Shown piece after piece: positions 6,716 to 14,516 of a stretch of DNA of 64,000 bases. The notes under the pieces are model-generated. The model was not told the DNA's origin. It saw only the letters and a program-made list of their open reading frames with translations, and searched no databases. The stretch is taken from contig DASVBS010000081.1 in NCBI GenBank assembly GCA_036375715.1, forward strand, positions 124,001 through 188,000. Direction: 5' to 3'. Positions within the stretch are counted from its first letter, which is position 1, and the number at the start of each line of letters is the position of its first letter. The DNA is from Longimicrobiaceae bacterium. GTDB lineage: Bacteria; Gemmatimonadota; Gemmatimonadetes; Longimicrobiales; Longimicrobiaceae. A program made the translations under genes and the position numbers.

Positions 6716-7549
6716 TCAGAAATCCCTCCGCCCATACAGCCAGGTGGCCGCAGCCAGCGGCCCCACGACCCAGAGCAGCGCCGACGCTAGCACCCACCCC
6801 GCCCCTCCCCACAGACCCAACATCGCCCTCAGTGCCGCGCCAGTGGGCCCCAGCAGGATGTCCGCACCCAGCGTGACCAGGGCGATCGCCCGCACGCCGT
6901 CGAGAGGATTGAGGGCGAGAATAGCCACCAGCCACGGCCCCGGCTCGCCCGAACCGACCACCTGCAGCACACCGATCGCCGCCAGGTCGTAGAGCACCGC
7001 CGCCGCGAACCAGGTGGTGAGCGCCCATCCCACGGCGGCACCGCGCGTCCGCGCGGCGACGCCCAGCAGGATGCCAAGCGCGAGCCCCACGATGCCCACG
7101 ACCACCGCTCCGCCGACCACGACCAGGTATCCGCCCAACCCGGAACTCCCCGCGCCTATTGCGACGAGCGCTCCAGTCGCCCCGAATCCGACCAGCGCCG
7201 CGGCCGAGAGGGCCGCACTCAGACCCAGTGCACGCCCCAGCAGGACCTCCATCCGACCGAGAGGCTGGGCCAGCATCAGCTCGGCGCCTCCATCTTCACC
7301 GCCAAACGCTGAGGCACCCAGCAACAAGCCGAGCAGCGGCAACAGGTACACGGAGAGCGGCAGCATGGATACGCCCGTGCGCGTGAACCCTTGCACCAGG
7401 AGCTGTCCGGACCCACCCAGCCCGGCGAGCGCGACCCCCACGCTCAGGAGCGTGAACAGGATGCCGAAGCCGAGCAGCATCCGCCCGCGCAGGGCCGTCA
7501 GCACCTCCTGGCGGGCGACGGTCAGCATCGCTTCAGTGCGTGTGGGCAT
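6716..7549 (-). CDS. nosY: NosY-type ABC-2 permease of the nitrous oxide reductase maturation complex
   Basis: 277 residues with about six membrane segments (for example GILFTLLSVGVALAGLGG, SVYLLPLLGLLLGASAF, VVVGIVGLALGILLGVAA and a C-terminal GWVLASALLWVVGPLAA). In the family NosY is the membrane part of the NosDFY ABC complex that supports copper-site assembly on NosZ in the periplasm. Its start lies 17 nt inside the end of nosL, so it is translationally coupled and last in the operon. nosL preceding nosY is unlike the more usual nosD-F-Y-L order. The gene ends just before the hairpin repeat at 6624-6663. Confidence 0.9.
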   Translation of the reverse strand: MPTRTEAMLTVARQEVLTALRGRMLLGFGILFTLLSVGVALAGLGGSGQLLVQGFTRTGVSMLPLSVYLLPLLGLLLGASAFGGEDGGAELMLAQPLGRMEVLLGRALGLSAALSAAALVGFGATGALVAIGAGSSGLGGYLVVVGGAVVVGIVGLALGILLGVAARTRGAAVGWALTTWFAAAVLYDLAAIGVLQVVGSGEPGPWLVAILALNPLDGVRAIALVTLGADILLGPTGAALRAMLGLWGGAGWVLASALLWVVGPLAAATWLYGRRDF

Positions 7550-8033
7550 CGCGCACTCCCCTGGTCAGCAGCTCATCCCAGCGGAGGAGCTCCCCTCCGG
7601 CCGGCGGATCGGCTCCGTCCGCATAGCTCACGACGTCGAATCCCATCCCGGTGCGGGTGACGCCCACGTGGAAGACGGCGTCGTGCGCGGGAAGCCACTC
7701 CCCGGTCTCCGCGTCGGCCACGAACGCTCGACCCTCGGCATCAGGGTTCCGCTGCAGCCAGGCAACGAGGCATCCTGGCTCGTCGAAGGTGAGGATCCGA
7801 CCCTCCCGCGGAATCCACTGCGCGGCCCGAAGCGGGTCGTCCACCGTCATGTGGCAGTACTCACACGCATCGATTCCCAGTGCCAGCTCGCGAGGCCCCC
7901 GCTCAGCGCCGGCACCGGTGCATCCCATGGTCAGAAAAGCCAGCAAGATCACCACCCTCTGGAGGTGCCCTCGCCGTGCCCCGAGCCCGCACCCAAGCTG
8001 GGGCCGACCGATCGATGTGCCGATGGCGTTCAT
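7533..8033 (-). CDS. nosL: NosL copper-chaperone lipoprotein
   Basis: 166 residues with a lipoprotein signal (VVILLAFLTMGC, Cys38) and the NosL Cu(I)-binding motif CEYCHM (Cys57, Cys60, Met62) followed by TVDDPLRAAQW. NosL delivers copper for NosZ assembly at the outer face of the membrane. The ATG at 8033 overlaps the nosF stop by 4 nt (ATGA), which supports this start even though it gives a long N-region. The C-x-x-C-H string resembles a haem c motif but fits the NosL C-x-x-C-x-M pattern. It lies between nosF and nosY instead of at the end of the operon. Confidence 0.92.
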   Translation of the reverse strand: MNAIGTSIGRPQLGCGLGARRGHLQRVVILLAFLTMGCTGAGAERGPRELALGIDACEYCHMTVDDPLRAAQWIPREGRILTFDEPGCLVAWLQRNPDAEGRAFVADAETGEWLPAHDAVFHVGVTRTGMGFDVVSYADGADPPAGGELLRWDELLTRGVRDAHTH

Positions 8034-8770
8034 GCCGCGCGCCCCGCGCTCCCACCCGCGATGACCCGGTAGGCCTCCTCTAGGCGACGCTCTCGCAGGT
8101 CGCGGTGCGGGACATAGGTTTCCACCAGCTCATCCACTGTACCGAGCGCGACCAGCCTCCCGGCCACGAACACGGCCACGCGGTCGGCGAGCGCGGCGAC
8201 TTCGCCGAGGTCGTGGGAGGAGAGTAGGATAGTCGTCCCCTCCGCGCGGATCTCGCGCAGCAGGTCTCGCACGGCCAGGGCCCCGCTCGGATCGAGGGCC
8301 GCCGTGGGCTCGTCCAGGATCAGGGCCCGCGGGTTGCCGAGCAGCGCCACTGCCAGCCCCAGCCGCTGCTTCATCCCCCCGGAGAAGGTGGTCGCATGAC
8401 GATCTTCCGCGTCCTGCAACCCCACCCGGTCGAGTAGCTGGGCAGCGGAGCCGGGATCCGCCCCGCGGAGGCGAGCGAAGTAGCGCATCAGCTCGCCGGC
8501 CGTGAACCCTTGCGGGAAGGAGAGCCCCTGCGGGAGGTAACCGAGCCTGGCCCGCGCCTCCCGACCGTGCGTCGCCACGTCCACACCGTCCACGGTGACC
8601 CTGCCCCGGGTCGGCCGCACCAGCGCGAGTGCCGCCTTCAGGGTTGTGCTCTTCCCCGAGCCGTTCGGTCCGACTAGCGCAATGGTTTCCCCGGGCCTGA
8701 CCTCCAGGTCGAGGCCGGCCAGCGCGACCAGGCGGCCGAAATGCTTGGTGACGCCCTCGTAGCGGATCAT
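8030..8770 (-). CDS. nosF: NosF ABC transporter ATP-binding protein
   Basis: 246 residues, a complete ABC ATPase: Walker A GPNGSGKST (34-42), signature FSGGMKQRL (129-137), Walker B LILDEPTAALD (150-160) and the H-loop histidine in LLSSHDLGE. As NosF it would power the NosDFY complex needed to mature the CuZ site of NosZ. Start and stop overlap nosD and nosL by 4 nt each. Context, not sequence alone, decides NosF over a generic exporter ATPase. Confidence 0.93.
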   Translation of the reverse strand: MIRYEGVTKHFGRLVALAGLDLEVRPGETIALVGPNGSGKSTTLKAALALVRPTRGRVTVDGVDVATHGREARARLGYLPQGLSFPQGFTAGELMRYFARLRGADPGSAAQLLDRVGLQDAEDRHATTFSGGMKQRLGLAVALLGNPRALILDEPTAALDPSGALAVRDLLREIRAEGTTILLSSHDLGEVAALADRVAVFVAGRLVALGTVDELVETYVPHRDLRERRLEEAYRVIAGGSAGRAA

Positions 8771-10170
8771 GGTCCCCTCACCTGATGGATGCGCCTGCCG
8801 CCCCCGCCCACCACCAGGATCAACACCGCGATCGCGATCACCGACCCGGCGGGGCGAGCAGGATCATCGTGCCCTTGGCGTTCGTGGCCCACGTCTTCGG
8901 GGCCCGCCTGCTCGCGACCTGTCCGCAGCGGGTCCGGCACCTCCACCAGAGGGGCGGGATCCTCCACGCGCGGCAGGTCGAAGACGGGGAAGGCGCGCTC
9001 CGCCCAGGAGAGTGCCAGCGCCGCTGGAGTGCCGGCGAAGATTTCCAGCACGGGCCGATTGGCCGCCAGCACCGCGAACGGATCGCCGACCAGGTGCGGC
9101 CGGTCGCCGACGCCGTCGCCATCTAGGTCGTAGATGGAGCGGTCGCCCCAGTAATTCCCACGCCCGTCTTCGGCCCAGACGTTCCGCGCATCGCCGTTGG
9201 GCTTTCGCACCGCGGTCCGGTTCCGCGCGATGACGTTGCCAACGAAGGTGTTGTTCTCGGCGCTGGCGATCAGGTCGATCCCGATTCCGTTGTCGGCAAT
9301 CACGTTGTCCGCAAAGCGGTTGTTCTCCGCCATGTCCAGGAATACGCCGACGAGATTCTGCTCGATGCGGTTGCGCTCAGCGACCACCCCGTAGGACGTC
9401 TGCAGGAGGATGCCGTAGGCGCGGTAGCCGACGTGGCGAGCGAAGGTGTTCTCCCGGAAGAGGATGCGATTGGAGAACATGATCGCGGCGCCGGCGGCGT
9501 TGTGGCTGAACCGGTTCCGCTCGAAGCGGTTGTCGTCGGAGTACATGTAGTGCAGCCCGTAGCGCACTTCGGCCACGTCGTTTTCCCGGATGAGGCTGCC
9601 GCTCGAGAAGGAGAAGTAGATGCCGTCGCGAGTCCGGCGGATGACGTTACCCTCGATCACCGTAGCCCGCGAGTTGAAGAGGTGGATTCCGTTCCCCCGC
9701 CGGGCCTCGGGCAGGGTGGCGAGCCCTTCGATGCGGTTGTCACGCACCCGGACGCGGCTGGACTCGAGCAGGTAGACGCCGTGTAGGGCGTCGTGGATCC
9801 GGTTCCCGATCACCTCACAGCCGCTGCAGCGAATCAGCTTGACCGCCGCGTCGTCCCCCTCCAGCGACCGGCCGGAATTGCGCAGCTCCAGCCCGCGGAC
9901 CTGTACCGAATCCGCCTCCACCTGCACGACGCTGCCCTGCGCCCCTCCGTCGAGCACCGCCCCCGATTCACCGAGCAGCACGACCGGCAGGTCGATGAGC
10001 ACGGGACCGGAGTGCACCCCGCTCAACAGGCGAATGGTGTCTCCGGGTGCTGCCGAAGCAATTGCCTCACGCACACTGCTGAACTCCGCTCCAGGCCCCA
10101 CGTGGAGCGTGCGGGGTGCCGGGCCGAGCGCGCCCGGAAGGACCGAAGTGAGCAGCAGCAGCGCCAGCAT
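8767..10170 (-). CDS. nosD: NosD periplasmic copper-site assembly protein with C-terminal membrane anchor
   Basis: 467 residues. A signal peptide (MLALLLLTSVLPGALG) precedes a right-handed beta-helix of CASH/NosD repeats (NGIHLFNSRATVIEGNVI, YGLHYMYSDDNRFERN, GIGIDLIASAENNTFVGNVI), and the region GRGNYWGDRSIYDLDGDGVGD is characteristic of NosD. A C-terminal hydrophobic stretch (SVIAIAVLILVVGGGG, near 447-462) then basic residues suggests anchoring. NosD docks NosL/NosZ to the NosFY transporter during copper loading. The gene starts 6 nt after the lipoprotein gene's stop and overlaps nosF by 4 nt. Confidence 0.94.
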   Translation of the reverse strand: MLALLLLTSVLPGALGPAPRTLHVGPGAEFSSVREAIASAAPGDTIRLLSGVHSGPVLIDLPVVLLGESGAVLDGGAQGSVVQVEADSVQVRGLELRNSGRSLEGDDAAVKLIRCSGCEVIGNRIHDALHGVYLLESSRVRVRDNRIEGLATLPEARRGNGIHLFNSRATVIEGNVIRRTRDGIYFSFSSGSLIRENDVAEVRYGLHYMYSDDNRFERNRFSHNAAGAAIMFSNRILFRENTFARHVGYRAYGILLQTSYGVVAERNRIEQNLVGVFLDMAENNRFADNVIADNGIGIDLIASAENNTFVGNVIARNRTAVRKPNGDARNVWAEDGRGNYWGDRSIYDLDGDGVGDRPHLVGDPFAVLAANRPVLEIFAGTPAALALSWAERAFPVFDLPRVEDPAPLVEVPDPLRTGREQAGPEDVGHERQGHDDPARPAGSVIAIAVLILVVGGGGRRIHQVRGP

Positions 10171-10176
10171 GGCTCC

Positions 10177-10644
10177 TCAGCTTGCCACGATCTGGCCCGC
10201 CTGCACCGCGGCGGTCCCCGCCTTCACGAAGAACTGCACCGCCTCGTCCAGCGCCAGCGTGATATCGCCAGCGCACTCGCCCTGGGTGAGGCGGGGCTTC
10301 ACCTCCTCGATCTTCGCGGTTCCCAGGCCGAACCAGTAGCGCGCGTCCTCGATCTCGGCGGTGGCGCGGCCGCGAGGATCCTTCACGTTGTCCAGAGCAC
10401 CCTGAACGAGATCCCGGGTCCCCAGTGCCTCCCGGAGCGCCCTTCCGCACCCCTCCAACGCCTCCTCGCTCCAGGAGGCAGTGATCTGCGCGAACTCCAG
10501 GTCCCCTGCCGACGGACCGGTGTCCCCGGCGACCGCTGTAGCCGCCCCGCGCGCCGAATCCCCCGACGCGGGGGTGTCGCCGCCGCACGCCAAAAGCAGG
10601 ATGCAGAGCGGCAGTAGAAACGAACCCGGATACAGGCGTTTCAT
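10177..10644 (-). CDS. Unrecognised lipoprotein of the nos operon
   Basis: 155 residues. The N-terminus MKRLYPGSFLLPLCILLLACGG is a clear lipoprotein signal with lipobox LLAC. The mature part is helical-looking, with only two further cysteines (EGCGRALREAL, TQGECAGD), which could form a disulfide or hold a metal; there is no haem c, FeS or cupredoxin motif. The ATG overlaps the stop of the preceding membrane-protein gene by 4 nt (ATGA) and nosD follows after 6 nt, so it is firmly in the operon. I do not recognise the family; a role in NosZ maturation or electron supply is only inferred from position. Confidence 0.8.
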   Translation of the reverse strand: MKRLYPGSFLLPLCILLLACGGDTPASGDSARGAATAVAGDTGPSAGDLEFAQITASWSEEALEGCGRALREALGTRDLVQGALDNVKDPRGRATAEIEDARYWFGLGTAKIEEVKPRLTQGECAGDITLALDEAVQFFVKAGTAAVQAGQIVAS

Positions 10645-11339
10645 GGCAGCCTTCCTTGCGCGGTTGAGCCCGACGATCTGTCCTTCCGCAGATCGAGCCA
10701 GAGCGCGGCGCAGATGAGGGCGCCGGCGAGCACCGGGAGGAAGGTCCCCCAGGAGAAGTAGGCGTAGGTGGCGAACTGTGCGATCGTATGCGAGCCGATC
10801 ATCGCGGGGGTGAACGGCTCGATCTCGATTGGCGCCGTCGGGTCCAGCTCGTGGCCGAACTGGTAGAGGCGTGAATGCATGCTCCAGAAGCCGTAGACCG
10901 CGGTTGCCACCATCAGCCCGAGCGGCAACAGCGTGGCCCAGAATCGACGGACCAGTGCTGCCCCCAGCGCCGCGATGGCGATTGCCGCGAACAGCCCCGG
11001 AATCACCTTCAGCTCGTGGAAGTAGTCGTCCGAGATCTCCGCCATACCGATGTAGTGGTTCAGCAGGTTGATCTCGGTGATGTCGCCGCGGATGTGGTCA
11101 GGGTAGATCACCATCCGCAGCCCCTCCGGGTACTGCACGCTCACCAGCGTCATCCCCCAGAGCGGCAGGAAGGCCGCTGCGGCTACCAGCACCGCCGCGC
11201 CGACCAGCAGGGCGGTGCGCACGCCCGCCGCGTCGAATCTTCGCCACCGCCGTGTTGCGGGCGGCTCCTCCGTCGCTGGCTGGATGGGATTCAGCGGCGC
11301 GCGCGGCCTCTGACTCCGACGTCTGATTGCAGTTCTCAT
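10641..11339 (-). CDS. NosB-like integral membrane protein of the clade II nos cluster
   Basis: 232 residues with four predicted membrane helices (TALLVGAAVLVAAAAFLPLWGM; VIPGLFAAIAIAALGAALV; FWATLLPLGLMVATAVYGFWSM; TFLPVLAGALICAALWL) and several His residues in loops (DHIRGDITEINLLNHYIGM, YFHELK, SMHSRLYQFGHEL). Clade II nos clusters usually carry a membrane protein called NosB right after nosZ, and this gene is in that place; assignment rests on position and topology, not on a remembered sequence match. SD GGGGGA precedes the ATG. It might pass electrons or help assembly. Confidence 0.7.
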   Translation of the reverse strand: MRTAIRRRSQRPRAPLNPIQPATEEPPATRRWRRFDAAGVRTALLVGAAVLVAAAAFLPLWGMTLVSVQYPEGLRMVIYPDHIRGDITEINLLNHYIGMAEISDDYFHELKVIPGLFAAIAIAALGAALVRRFWATLLPLGLMVATAVYGFWSMHSRLYQFGHELDPTAPIEIEPFTPAMIGSHTIAQFATYAYFSWGTFLPVLAGALICAALWLDLRKDRSSGSTAQGRLP

Positions 11340-11357
11340 GATGTCGTCCCCCGACTG

Positions 11358-11390
11358 ACCGCCCGGGCGGAGGCATCTCGCCCGGGCGGT
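11358..11390. terminator. Stem-loop between nosZ and the NosB-like gene
   Basis: ACCGCCCGGGCG (11358-11369) pairs perfectly with CGCCCGGGCGGT (11379-11390) across a 9-nt loop, 7 nt after the nosZ stop on the minus strand. There is no T tract, and the operon continues, so it is more likely an attenuator or an mRNA end-protecting hairpin than a full terminator. Confidence 0.65.
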
Positions 11391-11397
11391 TGGCTGG

Positions 11398-13368
11398 TCA
11401 GTGGCCGGCGTGGCTACCCATTGCCAGTGCCGGGTCGCGCCGCTCCCAGATCATCTCACCCTGGCCGTTGCGGTACATCGCCAGCGGTTGGCCCCGGGGC
11501 ACCACCTCGATGTATCCCTGCATCTCCTGGTGGAGCGCAGAGCAGAAGTTCGTGCAGTAGTAGGGATAGACCCCCGGCTTGTCGGCGATGAACCTCACCG
11601 TCTTCGTCTCCCCAGGATCGACGATCACGTTGCGATTGTGGCCCACCACCGCGAAGCCGTGGATCTCGTCGCGCTGCTGCTCCGCGTTGGTGATGTGCAG
11701 CACGACCGTATCCCCTTCCTGCACCTGGATCCGATAGGGCTCGTAGTAGGTGCGAATCGCGTAGATCTTCCCTTCCACCCGAGTCCCGGTCCGCGTGACG
11801 CTCGCGTCCGCAGGCTGCCAGATCGCGTGCGGATGCTCGTTCTCCTCCATCGGGTAGAACTCGATGGGGTTGAGCACATCGCGATGGATGAGCTGGGCGA
11901 AGTGCGGTTCGGGCTCGGTGAACGCCTCGTACAGCATCGTCATCTTGCCGCCCTCGAGCCCGATCAGCTGCGAGCTCTCCGGGATCGACGGTCCCACGTT
12001 GAGGTGCCGACCCTTGGACAGCTTGTTCATGGCGACCAGGTAGTCCCCACGCGGGTTGCGGGTGTCCCCATGGCTCGTCACCAGGTGCCCGATGTTGAAG
12101 TGCACGGGGATCTTCTGCACCACCAGCGACTGCGGGTCGACCCCCTCCTCGTAGGGCGGGAGCTTCCACTTCGCCACCGCGCTCTCCACGAAGAGCGAGG
12201 TATAGGCGTAGCCCTTCCCGTCGAACTGGGTGTGCAGCGGGCCGAGGCCGACGGGCACCTCCAGCTCCACCACCTCGTCGTACTCGAGCACGTGGATGCC
12301 GTCCTCGGTGTCGTGGGCGAAGTCCTGCTCCTCAATGGCCCGCAGGATCTTCTCGAAGGAGTAGACCGTGGCGGTGGGTGACAGCTTACCCGAGCAGATG
12401 ATGTATTTCCCGTCCGGGGTCACATCCACGCCGTGCGGGCTCTTGGCGCAGGGGAGCAGAAACATCACCCCCTCCTCCTGGGCGGGATCGATCATGCGCA
12501 CGCCGTTGACCTCGATCCCCCGACCCGCCTCGGCTGCCGCGGCCGCGGCCTTCCAGTTCACCACCGCCACGTAGTCGCGGTCCCGCTGCGCGCTGGTGAC
12601 CTCGAGCTTTCCGGTGGCCCGCTCAGCGTTGTACGAAGTCCAGAAGGCCCAGTCCTCCGAGGGCCCCTTCCCGGTCGCGCCCAGGTCCCAGTTGAAGGGA
12701 GGGGTAAGGATCTGCCAGCCGAGCGACATCTCGCCCGTCTCCGGATCGACACGAATTCCGGTCACCGCCCCCTTGTACTTCTCGGCGTACTCTTCCAGCG
12801 GCACGTAGCGGTTCGGAACAGGCACCGAGAAGCGGGTGGCCACCAGCACGTATTCGGTGTTCTCGGTGACCATGGAGGAGCCGTGGTTCCCCATGGTGTT
12901 GGGGATCGGTCCCAGGATCTGCTTCGTCTTCAGGTCGCGCAGATCGATCCGGGCGACGCGGTTGTTGGCGTTGTCGTTGACGAACAGCCAGCGCCCGTCG
13001 TAGTCGCCGTTGGTCTTCGAGGCCGCGGGGTGGTGGACATCTCCCCAGGTGAACTCGCCGAGCATCGCTCTGGTCTTCTCGTCGTAGCCGTAGCCCGTGC
13101 CCGGATAGGGCGAGAAGACCGGAATGGTGGCGATGTGGCGCATCGAGGGGACGCCCGCCACGTAGACCTGTCCCGAATGGCCACCGGAATAGAAGAGGTA
13201 GTACTCGTCCAGATCGCCCGGCTTGACGTAGGTGGCGAGGGCGGCCGCCTGCACGTCCGCGGTCGAGAGTGCCTCCGAGCCGGGCACCGCGGGGGTGCGT
13301 TCACCGCAGGCCGAGAGGCCGATGACGGCCGCGACGCCAAGGAGCCAGCGGTTCGCGGGTGTGTCCAT
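11398..13368 (-). CDS. nosZ: Nitrous oxide reductase, clade II (Sec-type), lipoprotein form
   Basis: 656 residues. NosZ reduces N2O to N2 in the periplasm using the CuZ cluster and the CuA electron-entry site. The N-terminal propeller contains the CuZ His signature regions VHHPA (111-115), GNHGSSM, SPHGVDV, PLHTQFD, TSHGD, LIHRD and EHPHAIW. The C-terminal cupredoxin domain has the CuA motif YYCTNFCSALHQEM with Cys605, Cys609, His613 and Met616. The signal peptide lacks a twin arginine and ends in LSAC, so it is Sec-exported and probably lipid-anchored, as in clade II enzymes. The ATG at 13368 is preceded by SD GGAGAA. It lies between hairpins at 11358-11390 and 13390-13412. No nosR or cytochrome c gene is adjacent; the upstream cupredoxin is the plausible electron donor. 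Confidence 0.98.
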   Translation of the reverse strand: MDTPANRWLLGVAAVIGLSACGERTPAVPGSEALSTADVQAAALATYVKPGDLDEYYLFYSGGHSGQVYVAGVPSMRHIATIPVFSPYPGTGYGYDEKTRAMLGEFTWGDVHHPAASKTNGDYDGRWLFVNDNANNRVARIDLRDLKTKQILGPIPNTMGNHGSSMVTENTEYVLVATRFSVPVPNRYVPLEEYAEKYKGAVTGIRVDPETGEMSLGWQILTPPFNWDLGATGKGPSEDWAFWTSYNAERATGKLEVTSAQRDRDYVAVVNWKAAAAAAEAGRGIEVNGVRMIDPAQEEGVMFLLPCAKSPHGVDVTPDGKYIICSGKLSPTATVYSFEKILRAIEEQDFAHDTEDGIHVLEYDEVVELEVPVGLGPLHTQFDGKGYAYTSLFVESAVAKWKLPPYEEGVDPQSLVVQKIPVHFNIGHLVTSHGDTRNPRGDYLVAMNKLSKGRHLNVGPSIPESSQLIGLEGGKMTMLYEAFTEPEPHFAQLIHRDVLNPIEFYPMEENEHPHAIWQPADASVTRTGTRVEGKIYAIRTYYEPYRIQVQEGDTVVLHITNAEQQRDEIHGFAVVGHNRNVIVDPGETKTVRFIADKPGVYPYYCTNFCSALHQEMQGYIEVVPRGQPLAMYRNGQGEMIWERRDPALAMGSHAGH

Positions 13369-13389
13369 GTCCGTTCTCCAGATGTTGAG

Positions 13390-13412
13390 TCGGCCAGGCG
13401 AAGCCCGGCCGA
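13390..13412. other. Stem-loop between the cupredoxin gene and nosZ
   Basis: TCGGCCAGG (13390-13398) pairs with CCCGGCCGA (13404-13412), one G-T pair, around a 5-nt loop, in the 62-nt gap upstream of the nosZ SD. Together with the hairpin after nosZ it brackets the nosZ message. Confidence 0.5.
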
Positions 13413-13430
13413 GGCTTGCTGCGCGACCGT

Positions 13431-13862
13431 CTACTCGACGGTCAGGGTGCCGACCATGCCGAGCACGGCGTGCGGATCGCACTGGAACTCGTACTCGCCC
13501 GCGGGGAAGTCCACCGTTATCTCGTGGGTCTGTCCGGGGAGCTGCAGAAACGGCGACGCCTCGGGGAGCGAAGCGGCGCCTGGATTCTTGTCCGCCGGGA
13601 AGGAGACGTTGTGGACGCCGCTGACGAGCACGAAGCGCAATACGTCGCCGCGCTTCACCGTAATGGCGGCCGGATCGAAGTAGTTGCCGGCCCCGTCCGT
13701 AACCATCTTCACTTCCACCATGTTGCCGGTGGCGGGCGCGGCGGCCGGAGCCTCGCTCGCTGCCGACGATTCACCGGAGGCCTTCGCCTCCTGTGAGCCG
13801 CACGCGGCGAGACCGAGGGTCAGGCTCACGAGTGCCAGCGAGAACAGATGGGGAATTCGCAT
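13431..13862 (-). CDS. Cupredoxin (plastocyanin/azurin-like) lipoprotein, candidate NosZ electron donor
   Basis: 143 residues from ATG 13862 (SD GAGGAAAG). Lipobox LAAC puts Cys21 as the acylated residue, followed by a Ser/Ala-rich tether (about 22-47). The rest is a type-1 copper domain: FDPAAITVKRGDVLRFV, first ligand His84 in GVHNVSFP, and the C-terminal cluster Cys128, His131, Met136 in FQCDPHAVLGM, then VGTLTVE. It is the second gene of the nos operon and directly precedes nosZ, which makes it a likely periplasmic electron carrier to CuA, replacing the cytochromes or NosR found in other nos loci. The frame extends upstream to 14153, but that part is antisense to nothing protein-like. Confidence 0.9.
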   Translation of the reverse strand: MRIPHLFSLALVSLTLGLAACGSQEAKASGESSAASEAPAAAPATGNMVEVKMVTDGAGNYFDPAAITVKRGDVLRFVLVSGVHNVSFPADKNPGAASLPEASPFLQLPGQTHEITVDFPAGEYEFQCDPHAVLGMVGTLTVE

Positions 13863-13875
13863 CGTCGTTCTTTCC

Positions 13876-14331
13876 TCACGAGGTGGATTGAGCGTAGCAA
13901 GCGCGTCCGGACAGCCCGTCCGACATAGCCGGCGCATCGCTGAGCAGGTCGCCGAGGGTGGTCGTCTCCAGGGGCGCCATCGACTCGCGCCACATGGCAG
14001 TCCAGCGCGCGTGGGCGTCGCAGGGGCGGCGCGCGTCGCATCGCCGTCCGCCCAGCAAGCAGAGGGGTCGCTCGGGCGCGGGCTCGAAGAGCTCCATGAT
14101 CCGCGCGATCGGGAGGGAGGAGGGATCGACCTCCAGCATGAAACCTCCCCCACGTCCGCGCACCGCCGAGAGGAGACCGCGGTGCGCCAGGGCGTTCAGG
14201 GTCTTCGCCAGGTAGTTCCTCGGCGCCCCGATGGCGGTGGCGATCTCGTCTGCGGACACCGCTCCGCTGGCGGGCCGGCCGGCGAGGTACAGCAGCGCAC
14301 GGATGGCGTGTTCGGACGTCTGCGAAAGCAT
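13876..14331 (-). CDS. Rrf2 family Fe-S transcriptional regulator, first gene of the nos operon
   Basis: 151 residues starting MLSQTSEHAIRALLYLAG, the normal Rrf2 start, with GGGGG SD just upstream; an earlier start at 14361 adds ten unlikely residues. The winged helix contains ADEIATAIGAPRNYLAKTLNALAHRGLL and the wing RGRGGGFML. Cys91, Cys98 and Cys104 lie where IscR/NsrR bind an Fe-S cluster. In this family such clusters sense NO, iron or redox state. It is 13 nt upstream of the cupredoxin start, so it probably controls its own operon in response to NO or redox. NsrR versus IscR type cannot be told. Confidence 0.92.
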   Translation of the reverse strand: MLSQTSEHAIRALLYLAGRPASGAVSADEIATAIGAPRNYLAKTLNALAHRGLLSAVRGRGGGFMLEVDPSSLPIARIMELFEPAPERPLCLLGGRRCDARRPCDAHARWTAMWRESMAPLETTTLGDLLSDAPAMSDGLSGRACYAQSTS

Positions 14332-14359
14332 CCCCCGCTCCCGACTGCGATTTAAGACC

Positions 14360-14377
14360 ATATCTGCATGCGGTTAT
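14360..14377. promoter_or_regulatory. Candidate Rrf2 operator (imperfect palindrome)
   Basis: An 18-bp imperfect palindrome, ATAnCnGCATGCnGnTAT in consensus, lies about 29 nt upstream of the Rrf2 ATG in a locally AT-rich patch. Position and symmetry suit autoregulation of the nos operon; the sequence does not clearly match the known NsrR or IscR consensus. Confidence 0.4.
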
Positions 14378-14516
14378 CAGCTTACTTTCCGCCGAGATGG
14401 CCCGGAGTCGGGGAACGCCATTCTCTTTTCAGAGGAACAAGGAGGGCAGCGCTGTGGGGGATTCTCCGGCGGAGGACGCGGGAGATCCTGCTCCATGAGC
14501 GCCAAACGAAATCCCC

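Follow-up and report, generated by a model that had tools for sequence, protein, structure and literature searches.

The stretch of DNA analysed here (the window) comprises 64,000 nucleotides from a Longimicrobiaceae bacterium of the phylum Gemmatimonadota (assembly GCA_036375715.1, contig DASVBS010000081.1, positions 124,001 to 188,000). It carries a nos operon for the reduction of nitrous oxide (N2O), in which the gene of a small copper protein, a cupredoxin, directly precedes the N2O reductase gene nosZ. In the reading that we favour, at a probability of about 0.8, the operon is of clade II, its carrier slot holds a dedicated and lipid-anchored cupredoxin of the plastocyanin-like kind, which passes electrons from quinol oxidation to NosZ, and the slot is interchangeable across Gemmatimonadota. 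It is also probable, at a lower confidence, that the slot is one for exchangeable donors: plastocyanin-like cupredoxins and small c-type cytochromes would have been swapped in place at least eight times, clade II NosZ would take copper and haem donors interchangeably, and metal supply or redox would decide between them.

A membrane quinol-oxidising complex, most likely alternative complex III, would reduce the cupredoxin, one electron at a time. The cupredoxin would pass the electrons to the CuA site of the lipid-anchored NosZ, from where they would reach CuZ and N2O. The lipid anchors suggested by the lipoboxes of both proteins would hold donor and enzyme at the membrane surface.

The cupredoxin is predicted to be a plastocyanin-like protein with a type 1 copper site and a lipid anchor. 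Aligned with plastocyanin, it had the complete type 1 copper ligand set (H84, C128, H131 and M136), and its nearest solved relatives were plastocyanins (3bqv, 6e-14). It scored below the equivalog models of plastocyanin (TIGR02656, 61.6 bits, cut-off 87.85) and pseudoazurin (TIGR02375, 38.4 bits, cut-off 109.85), and is thus plastocyanin-like rather than a plastocyanin. By its sequence, the window NosZ is a Sec-dependent lipoprotein of clade II with predicted N2O reductase activity. The ligands of CuZ (H112, H113, H162, H312, H379, H428, H489) and CuA (H570, C605, C609, H613, M616) were complete in the alignment to solved N2O reductases. The TAT-dependent NosZ model gave 467 bits, under its cut-off of 625. 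As expected for clade II, nosB lay directly downstream of nosZ and the cluster was without nosR. The lipid-anchored cupredoxin beside a lipid-anchored NosZ, described in the initial annotation, was recovered with the lipoboxes LAAC and LSAC, respectively. Lipoboxes on NosZ were common in all groups examined, and we rejected the anchored enzyme as a peculiarity of the window.

To place the operon among its relatives, we used NosZ as the query against 395 Gemmatimonadota genomes. We fetched and oriented 94 nos loci (95 with the window) and labelled their genes with profiles; a comparison set from outside the phylum added 80 loci, giving 175 in total, some of them truncated. Two positions counted as carrier slots, the one immediately ahead of nosZ and the one immediately behind nosY. 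Enough flanking sequence to call a locus complete was present in 72 cases. Many of the genomes are draft assemblies. Genus and family codes are those of the search tool. With respect to the window NosZ, the enzymes fell into a close group (71–76% identity), an intermediate group (62–66%) and a large distant group (mostly 43–51%).

Among the 72 complete loci, 28 had a cupredoxin in a slot, 37 a small c-type cytochrome, seven neither and none both. With the truncated loci included, the counts were 34, 47, 14 and again none. The 37 cytochromes of the complete loci comprised 21 small lipoproteins of one family and 16 other single-haem open reading frames (ORFs), mostly right after nosY; this second class was called by its position, its size and the presence of one haem motif, and Pfam confirmed two examples. 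A first tally had missed the second family and counted 23 of the 72 loci as having neither carrier, a figure overturned by the refined scan, which found these 16. About 14 loci with both carriers would be expected under independence. Because the loci are related, we put the weight on the NosZ tree rather than on this figure. The initial annotation had named absence of the cupredoxin from orthologous loci as evidence against its proposal; a homologous cupredoxin gene was present directly upstream of nosZ in all eight closest relatives with sequence there. The distant group had its cupredoxin, which belongs to the same clade, just after nosY, with one exception upstream (L285). None of the 80 loci from outside Gemmatimonadota had a cupredoxin.

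The nos cupredoxins formed a clade of their own. In a tree of 73 cupredoxins, the 40 nos-linked ones, from both positions and both NosZ lineages, grouped with two others in one clade (99/100), so that nos operons account for 40 of the 42 members. Outside it fell 31 of the 33 lone cupredoxins of Gemmatimonadota. Since one clade spans both positions and lineages, the carrier has travelled with nosZ across two positions and two NosZ lineages of ~47% identity. The nos cupredoxins were acidic, with a mean net charge of −8.9 in the upstream type and −3.4 in the downstream type. An argument on carrier charge was dropped, as the cytochromes vary too widely.

Nine changes between cupredoxin and cytochrome were required on a maximum-likelihood NosZ tree. 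Another tree, built with a mixture model, also required nine, at least eight of them forced by supported branches. In genus g59, one locus (L052, from a single-contig genome) had a cupredoxin gene 12 bp after nosY, whereas its congeners L082 and L122 had a monohaem lipoprotein cytochrome gene 4–45 bp after nosY. Both flanks (51–90% identical) and the other nos genes matched, and the carrier alone differed. The same difference was found between L067 and L107, with flanks conserved on both sides, while in the pairs L105/L047 and L045/L070 the downstream neighbour was conserved. The single-contig cupredoxin-type congener G019 gave no nos-type cytochrome, its best match genome-wide having 29 bits, compared with 161–323 bits in seven cytochrome-type genomes. 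Conversely, the cytochrome-type congeners of G019 gave weak cupredoxin matches, at the strength of the lone class. These checks for the missing partner covered 28 genomes for the cytochrome and 395 for the cupredoxin. Cupredoxin and cytochrome have thus replaced each other repeatedly in place across Gemmatimonadota, and we infer that the swap preserves function.

Operon transfer, misassembly or binning might also produce apparent swaps. The NosZ lineage of the window clusters with Acidobacteriota and occurs patchily in several families, therefore operons have moved, and many of the assemblies are drafts. Such an artefact is nevertheless highly improbable, given that the comparisons of L052 with L082/L122 and of L067 with L107 keep both flanks and the other nos genes, that the L052 genome is a single contig and that the absence of the partner was checked genome-wide.

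The genome from which the window derives (4.37 Mb, 87 contigs) was searched family by family. It had no cytochrome b, and a bc1-type donor complex was rejected on this ground. The gene set of alternative complex III was complete (L239), with the pentahaem ActA, ActB, the NrfD-type ActC, ActD, the monohaem ActE and ActF together; ActC was assigned by its NrfD match, the others by order, size and haem motifs. By analogy with auracyanin in Chloroflexus (PMC3150298), this complex probably reduces the cupredoxin. The electron path would then not be copper-only, as the initial annotation had it, because the proposed quinol oxidase has haems and iron-sulfur (Fe-S) clusters; this claim was overstated, and the last steps alone would run on copper. 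Several oxidases were found, including a ba3-like one, and a NirK gene over its family cut-off (C28:89774-90658, 363 bits). No NorB was recognised among the COX1-family matches.

About 26 Cytochrom_C domains were detected in this genome, and therefore the claim that there is no cytochrome is true of the locus only. Within the 64 kb window, no c-type haem protein was found among the gene calls, the sole CXXCH match being the putative copper motif (CEYCH) of NosL. A cytochrome of the nos type elsewhere in the genome, the check proposed along with that claim, was not found: the upstream nos family was absent from the 20 of 27 cytochrome loci examined (best match 24 bits), and the downstream family gave a weak match alone, of 70 bits compared with 161–323 in genomes that have this cytochrome.

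Electron transfer is the function that blue copper and haem proteins have in common, which points to the cupredoxin as the most likely electron donor of NosZ. This role, already proposed in the initial annotation, is well supported by the one-for-one exchange with small c-type cytochromes in the same slots, never with both present. We consider it unlikely that the cupredoxin serves the periplasm at large, as a carrier also for oxidases or NirK that is encoded here by chance, with a cytochrome encoded elsewhere as the real NosZ donor. The cytochrome domains, NirK and oxidases of the genome would agree with such a role, as would a nos-type cupredoxin in a genome where no nosZ was found (L281), but the nos cupredoxins make up one clade, in which 40 of 42 belong to nos operons, at two positions and with two distant NosZ lineages, they are exchanged one for one with the operon cytochrome, and a second copy of the cupredoxin was not found in the window's own genome. 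Even less likely is a carrier or reservoir of copper that loads NosZ together with NosL and NosD. The cupredoxin is indeed a copper protein inside an operon of copper-maturation genes; however, nosL, nosD, nosF and nosY are already there, and a type 1 site with all four ligands (His, Cys, His, Met) serves electron transfer. Close relatives have a monohaem cytochrome c in this slot, and since a haem protein can neither deliver copper nor replace a copper chaperone, electron donation to CuA is preferred.

Several points weigh against a dedicated cupredoxin donor. The donation to NosZ is a step that we infer, and with ~26 cytochrome c domains in the genome another cytochrome could also donate to NosZ. 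NirK may be a second client of the cupredoxin. The lone nos-type cupredoxin L281 (genome G311) is sister to the nos-operon one of G379, a genome of the same family as the window. Finally, in seven complete loci no carrier was detected in a slot, therefore the donors of some NosZ enzymes must be encoded at other loci; of the seven, one had a Rieske/cytochrome b/pentahaem set and two had a haem ORF on the opposite strand.

Genes were called with a simple ORF caller and profiles (Table 1). The calls agreed with the initial annotation in the coordinates of the nine nos genes, their single strand and their tight packing, and also in the lack of NosR, which was not found in family searches of the operon proteins. 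The pairs nosB/LipX, nosD/nosF and nosF/nosL overlapped by 4 bp each and nosL/nosY by 17 bp, and the remaining gaps were ~62 bp or less. Because of these overlaps, the nine genes are likely transcribed together as one transcript.

Table 1 Features of the nos operon in the window.
Feature	Position	Strand	Evidence
nos operon	6716-14331	-	nine genes: rrf2, cupredoxin, nosZ, nosB, LipX, nosD, nosF, nosL, nosY
nosY, ABC-2 type permease	6716..7549	-	PF12679 2.9e-21; 76 bits vs cut-off 27
nosL, copper chaperone lipoprotein, CEYCHM motif	7533..8033	-	PF05573 25.8 bits vs cut-off 24
nosF, ABC transporter ATPase	8030..8770	-	PF00005 8e-33; 114 bits vs cut-off 25
nosD, periplasmic beta-helix maturation protein	8767..10170	-	TIGR04247 411 bits vs cut-off 300
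LipX, small helical lipoprotein	10177..10644	-	homologues in L035, L056, L084
nosB, four-transmembrane protein	10641..11339	-	LNHYIGM and YGHN-like (FGHE) signatures; alignment of 24 NosB
nosZ, clade II N2O reductase	11398..13368	-	lipobox LSAC; Sec-dependent TIGR04246 837 bits vs cut-off 625
cupredoxin lipoprotein, putative electron donor	13431..13862	-	lipobox LAAC; PF00127 1.7e-14, 54.5 bits vs cut-off 21.2
rrf2, Fe-S type Rrf2 regulator	13876..14331	-	PF02082 1.5e-23; rrf2_super 89 bits vs cut-off 73
imperfect palindrome TAAGACCATATCTGCATGCGGTTATCAGCTTA, candidate regulator site	14353..14384	.	22 bp upstream of rrf2 start; arms 74% complementary

The Rrf2 protein had three cysteines (C91, C98 and C104, spaced C-x6-C-x5-C) with a histidine after them, placing it among the Fe-S type Rrf2 regulators. 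It stayed below the strict equivalog cut-offs of NsrR (46.5 of 182 bits) and IscR (51 of 208 bits). The palindrome upstream of its gene is a candidate self-regulation site. The built-in Fe-S regulator was thus correctly recognised in the initial annotation; it is no oddity, as local rrf2 genes were frequent in clade II nos loci of many phyla.

NosB and LipX matched no curated family in Pfam or NCBIfam. The window NosB carries the published NosB signature LNHYIGM (PMC9697520) and aligned with NosB from other nos loci. Its AlphaFold model (pLDDT 89) gave Foldseek matches to the claudin/TARP four-helix fold with a probability near 1, a best E value of 0.002 and a TM score of ~0.4–0.5, a weak but consistent likeness of predicted structure. 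For LipX a confident helical bundle was modelled (pLDDT > 90 over about residues 50–155), with no match in the PDB at E values up to 0.001. Judged by its few homologues, LipX is nearly confined to the window's own family. In genome G379, NosB and LipX share one open frame as an in-frame fusion (L035:9623-10792, minus strand). This recalls the NosB-NosL fusions that exist in other bacteria (PMC9697520). More distant relatives, in L056 and L084, lay between nosZ and nosB, and a KAGTAA signature was common to LipX and its relatives.

Two further observations concern DNA outside the window. About 8 kb before its left edge there were two adjacent paralogues of ~575 aa with very similar N-termini (L237:13375-16891). 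On the same contig, ~80 kb from the window, a cupin, a small RIC/ScdA-like N-terminal protein, a Crp/Fnr regulator and a small COX1-like protein were encoded together, with more small ORFs downstream (L238:5397-8243). This is likely a nitric oxide response cluster, its genes being named by eye except for the COX1 match.

The gene order nosD-nosF-nosL-nosY had been described as a departure from a usual nosD-nosF-nosY-nosL. The latter order was found in none of the 175 loci, some of them truncated, and we rejected it as the norm for such operons. The order of the window was shared by L032, L035 and L043 and, outside the phylum, by loci from Acidobacteriota (L151, L152), an unclassified bacterium (L153), Myxococcota (L156) and Sericytochromatia (L157); among operons from other phyla, those nearest to the window's have it in common. 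Elsewhere, where nosL was detected, it lay mostly between nosB and nosD, the commonest order being nosB-nosL-nosD-nosF-nosY. Just outside the window's group, nosZ of three loci (L043:9000-19700, L151:5589-8880 and L152) directly followed genes for a Rieske protein, cytochrome b and a pentahaem cytochrome, a whole module in the place of the single cupredoxin gene of the window. The cytochrome label ('CYT') initially given to L151–L153 as monohaem carriers was rejected, since the protein is a pentahaem one beside Rieske and cytochrome b.

Gemmatimonadota are abundant soil N2O consumers, and in the open literature searched we found no naming of the electron donor for their NosZ. A likely donor gene can now be pointed out in about nine of ten complete operons, and the identity of the donor in these soil bacteria becomes directly testable. 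Copper and haem carriers are exchanged while the remaining operon stays, and a single genus, one member of which is in culture, provides a natural experiment. The influence of copper or iron supply on the choice of carrier in N2O-reducing soil bacteria becomes testable as well.

Our search found no literature report of cupredoxin genes in nos operons of clade II or of their exchange with cytochromes; subscription reviews lay outside the search, and prior art is possible. The idea that a cupredoxin donates to NosZ is in itself not new. Donation by pseudoazurin is established biochemistry. In Paracoccus denitrificans the pseudoazurin gene is clustered with the nos genes (PMC9409073), as the cupredoxin gene is in the window. 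There, however, NosZ is a Tat-exported clade I enzyme accompanied by NosR, and the pseudoazurin is soluble, belongs to another cupredoxin subfamily and works alongside cytochrome c550 rather than replacing it. For haloarchaea, halocyanin/azurin have been postulated as NosZ donors (PMC11218638), and haloarchaeal NosZ carries a lipobox (PMC8301774). As far as these accounts go, they resemble the window in a copper protein proposed in place of cytochrome c and in a membrane-anchored NosZ, and differ in that the hosts are archaea with Tat export, the halocyanin genes lie by nirK/nor and not in the nos operon, and no swap is described.

Clade II nos operons with nosB and a c-type cytochrome, for example in Pontibacter, Capnocytophaga and Ignavibacteria (PMC9697520), share with the window the NosZ type, nosB, nosD, nosF, nosY and nosL, often a local rrf2, and one small carrier gene beside nosZ. 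Their carrier is a haem cytochrome, whereas that of the window is a cupredoxin. Operons of the Gemmatimonas/Gemmatirosa type (L052, L053) have a cupredoxin of the same dedicated clade; unlike in the window, it lies after nosY, NosZ is ~46–47% identical and nosL comes before nosD. In Chloroflexus, auracyanin is reduced by alternative complex III (PMC3150298), so that this complex is paired with a blue copper carrier, as proposed for the genome of the window. In Chloroflexus the electrons go to the photosynthetic reaction centre instead of N2O reductase. Plastocyanin and cytochrome c6 of cyanobacteria and algae are the familiar case of copper and haem carriers of similar size that exchange in the same job. 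Both genes are often present together, with copper switching between them, whereas the nos operons described here hold one or the other.

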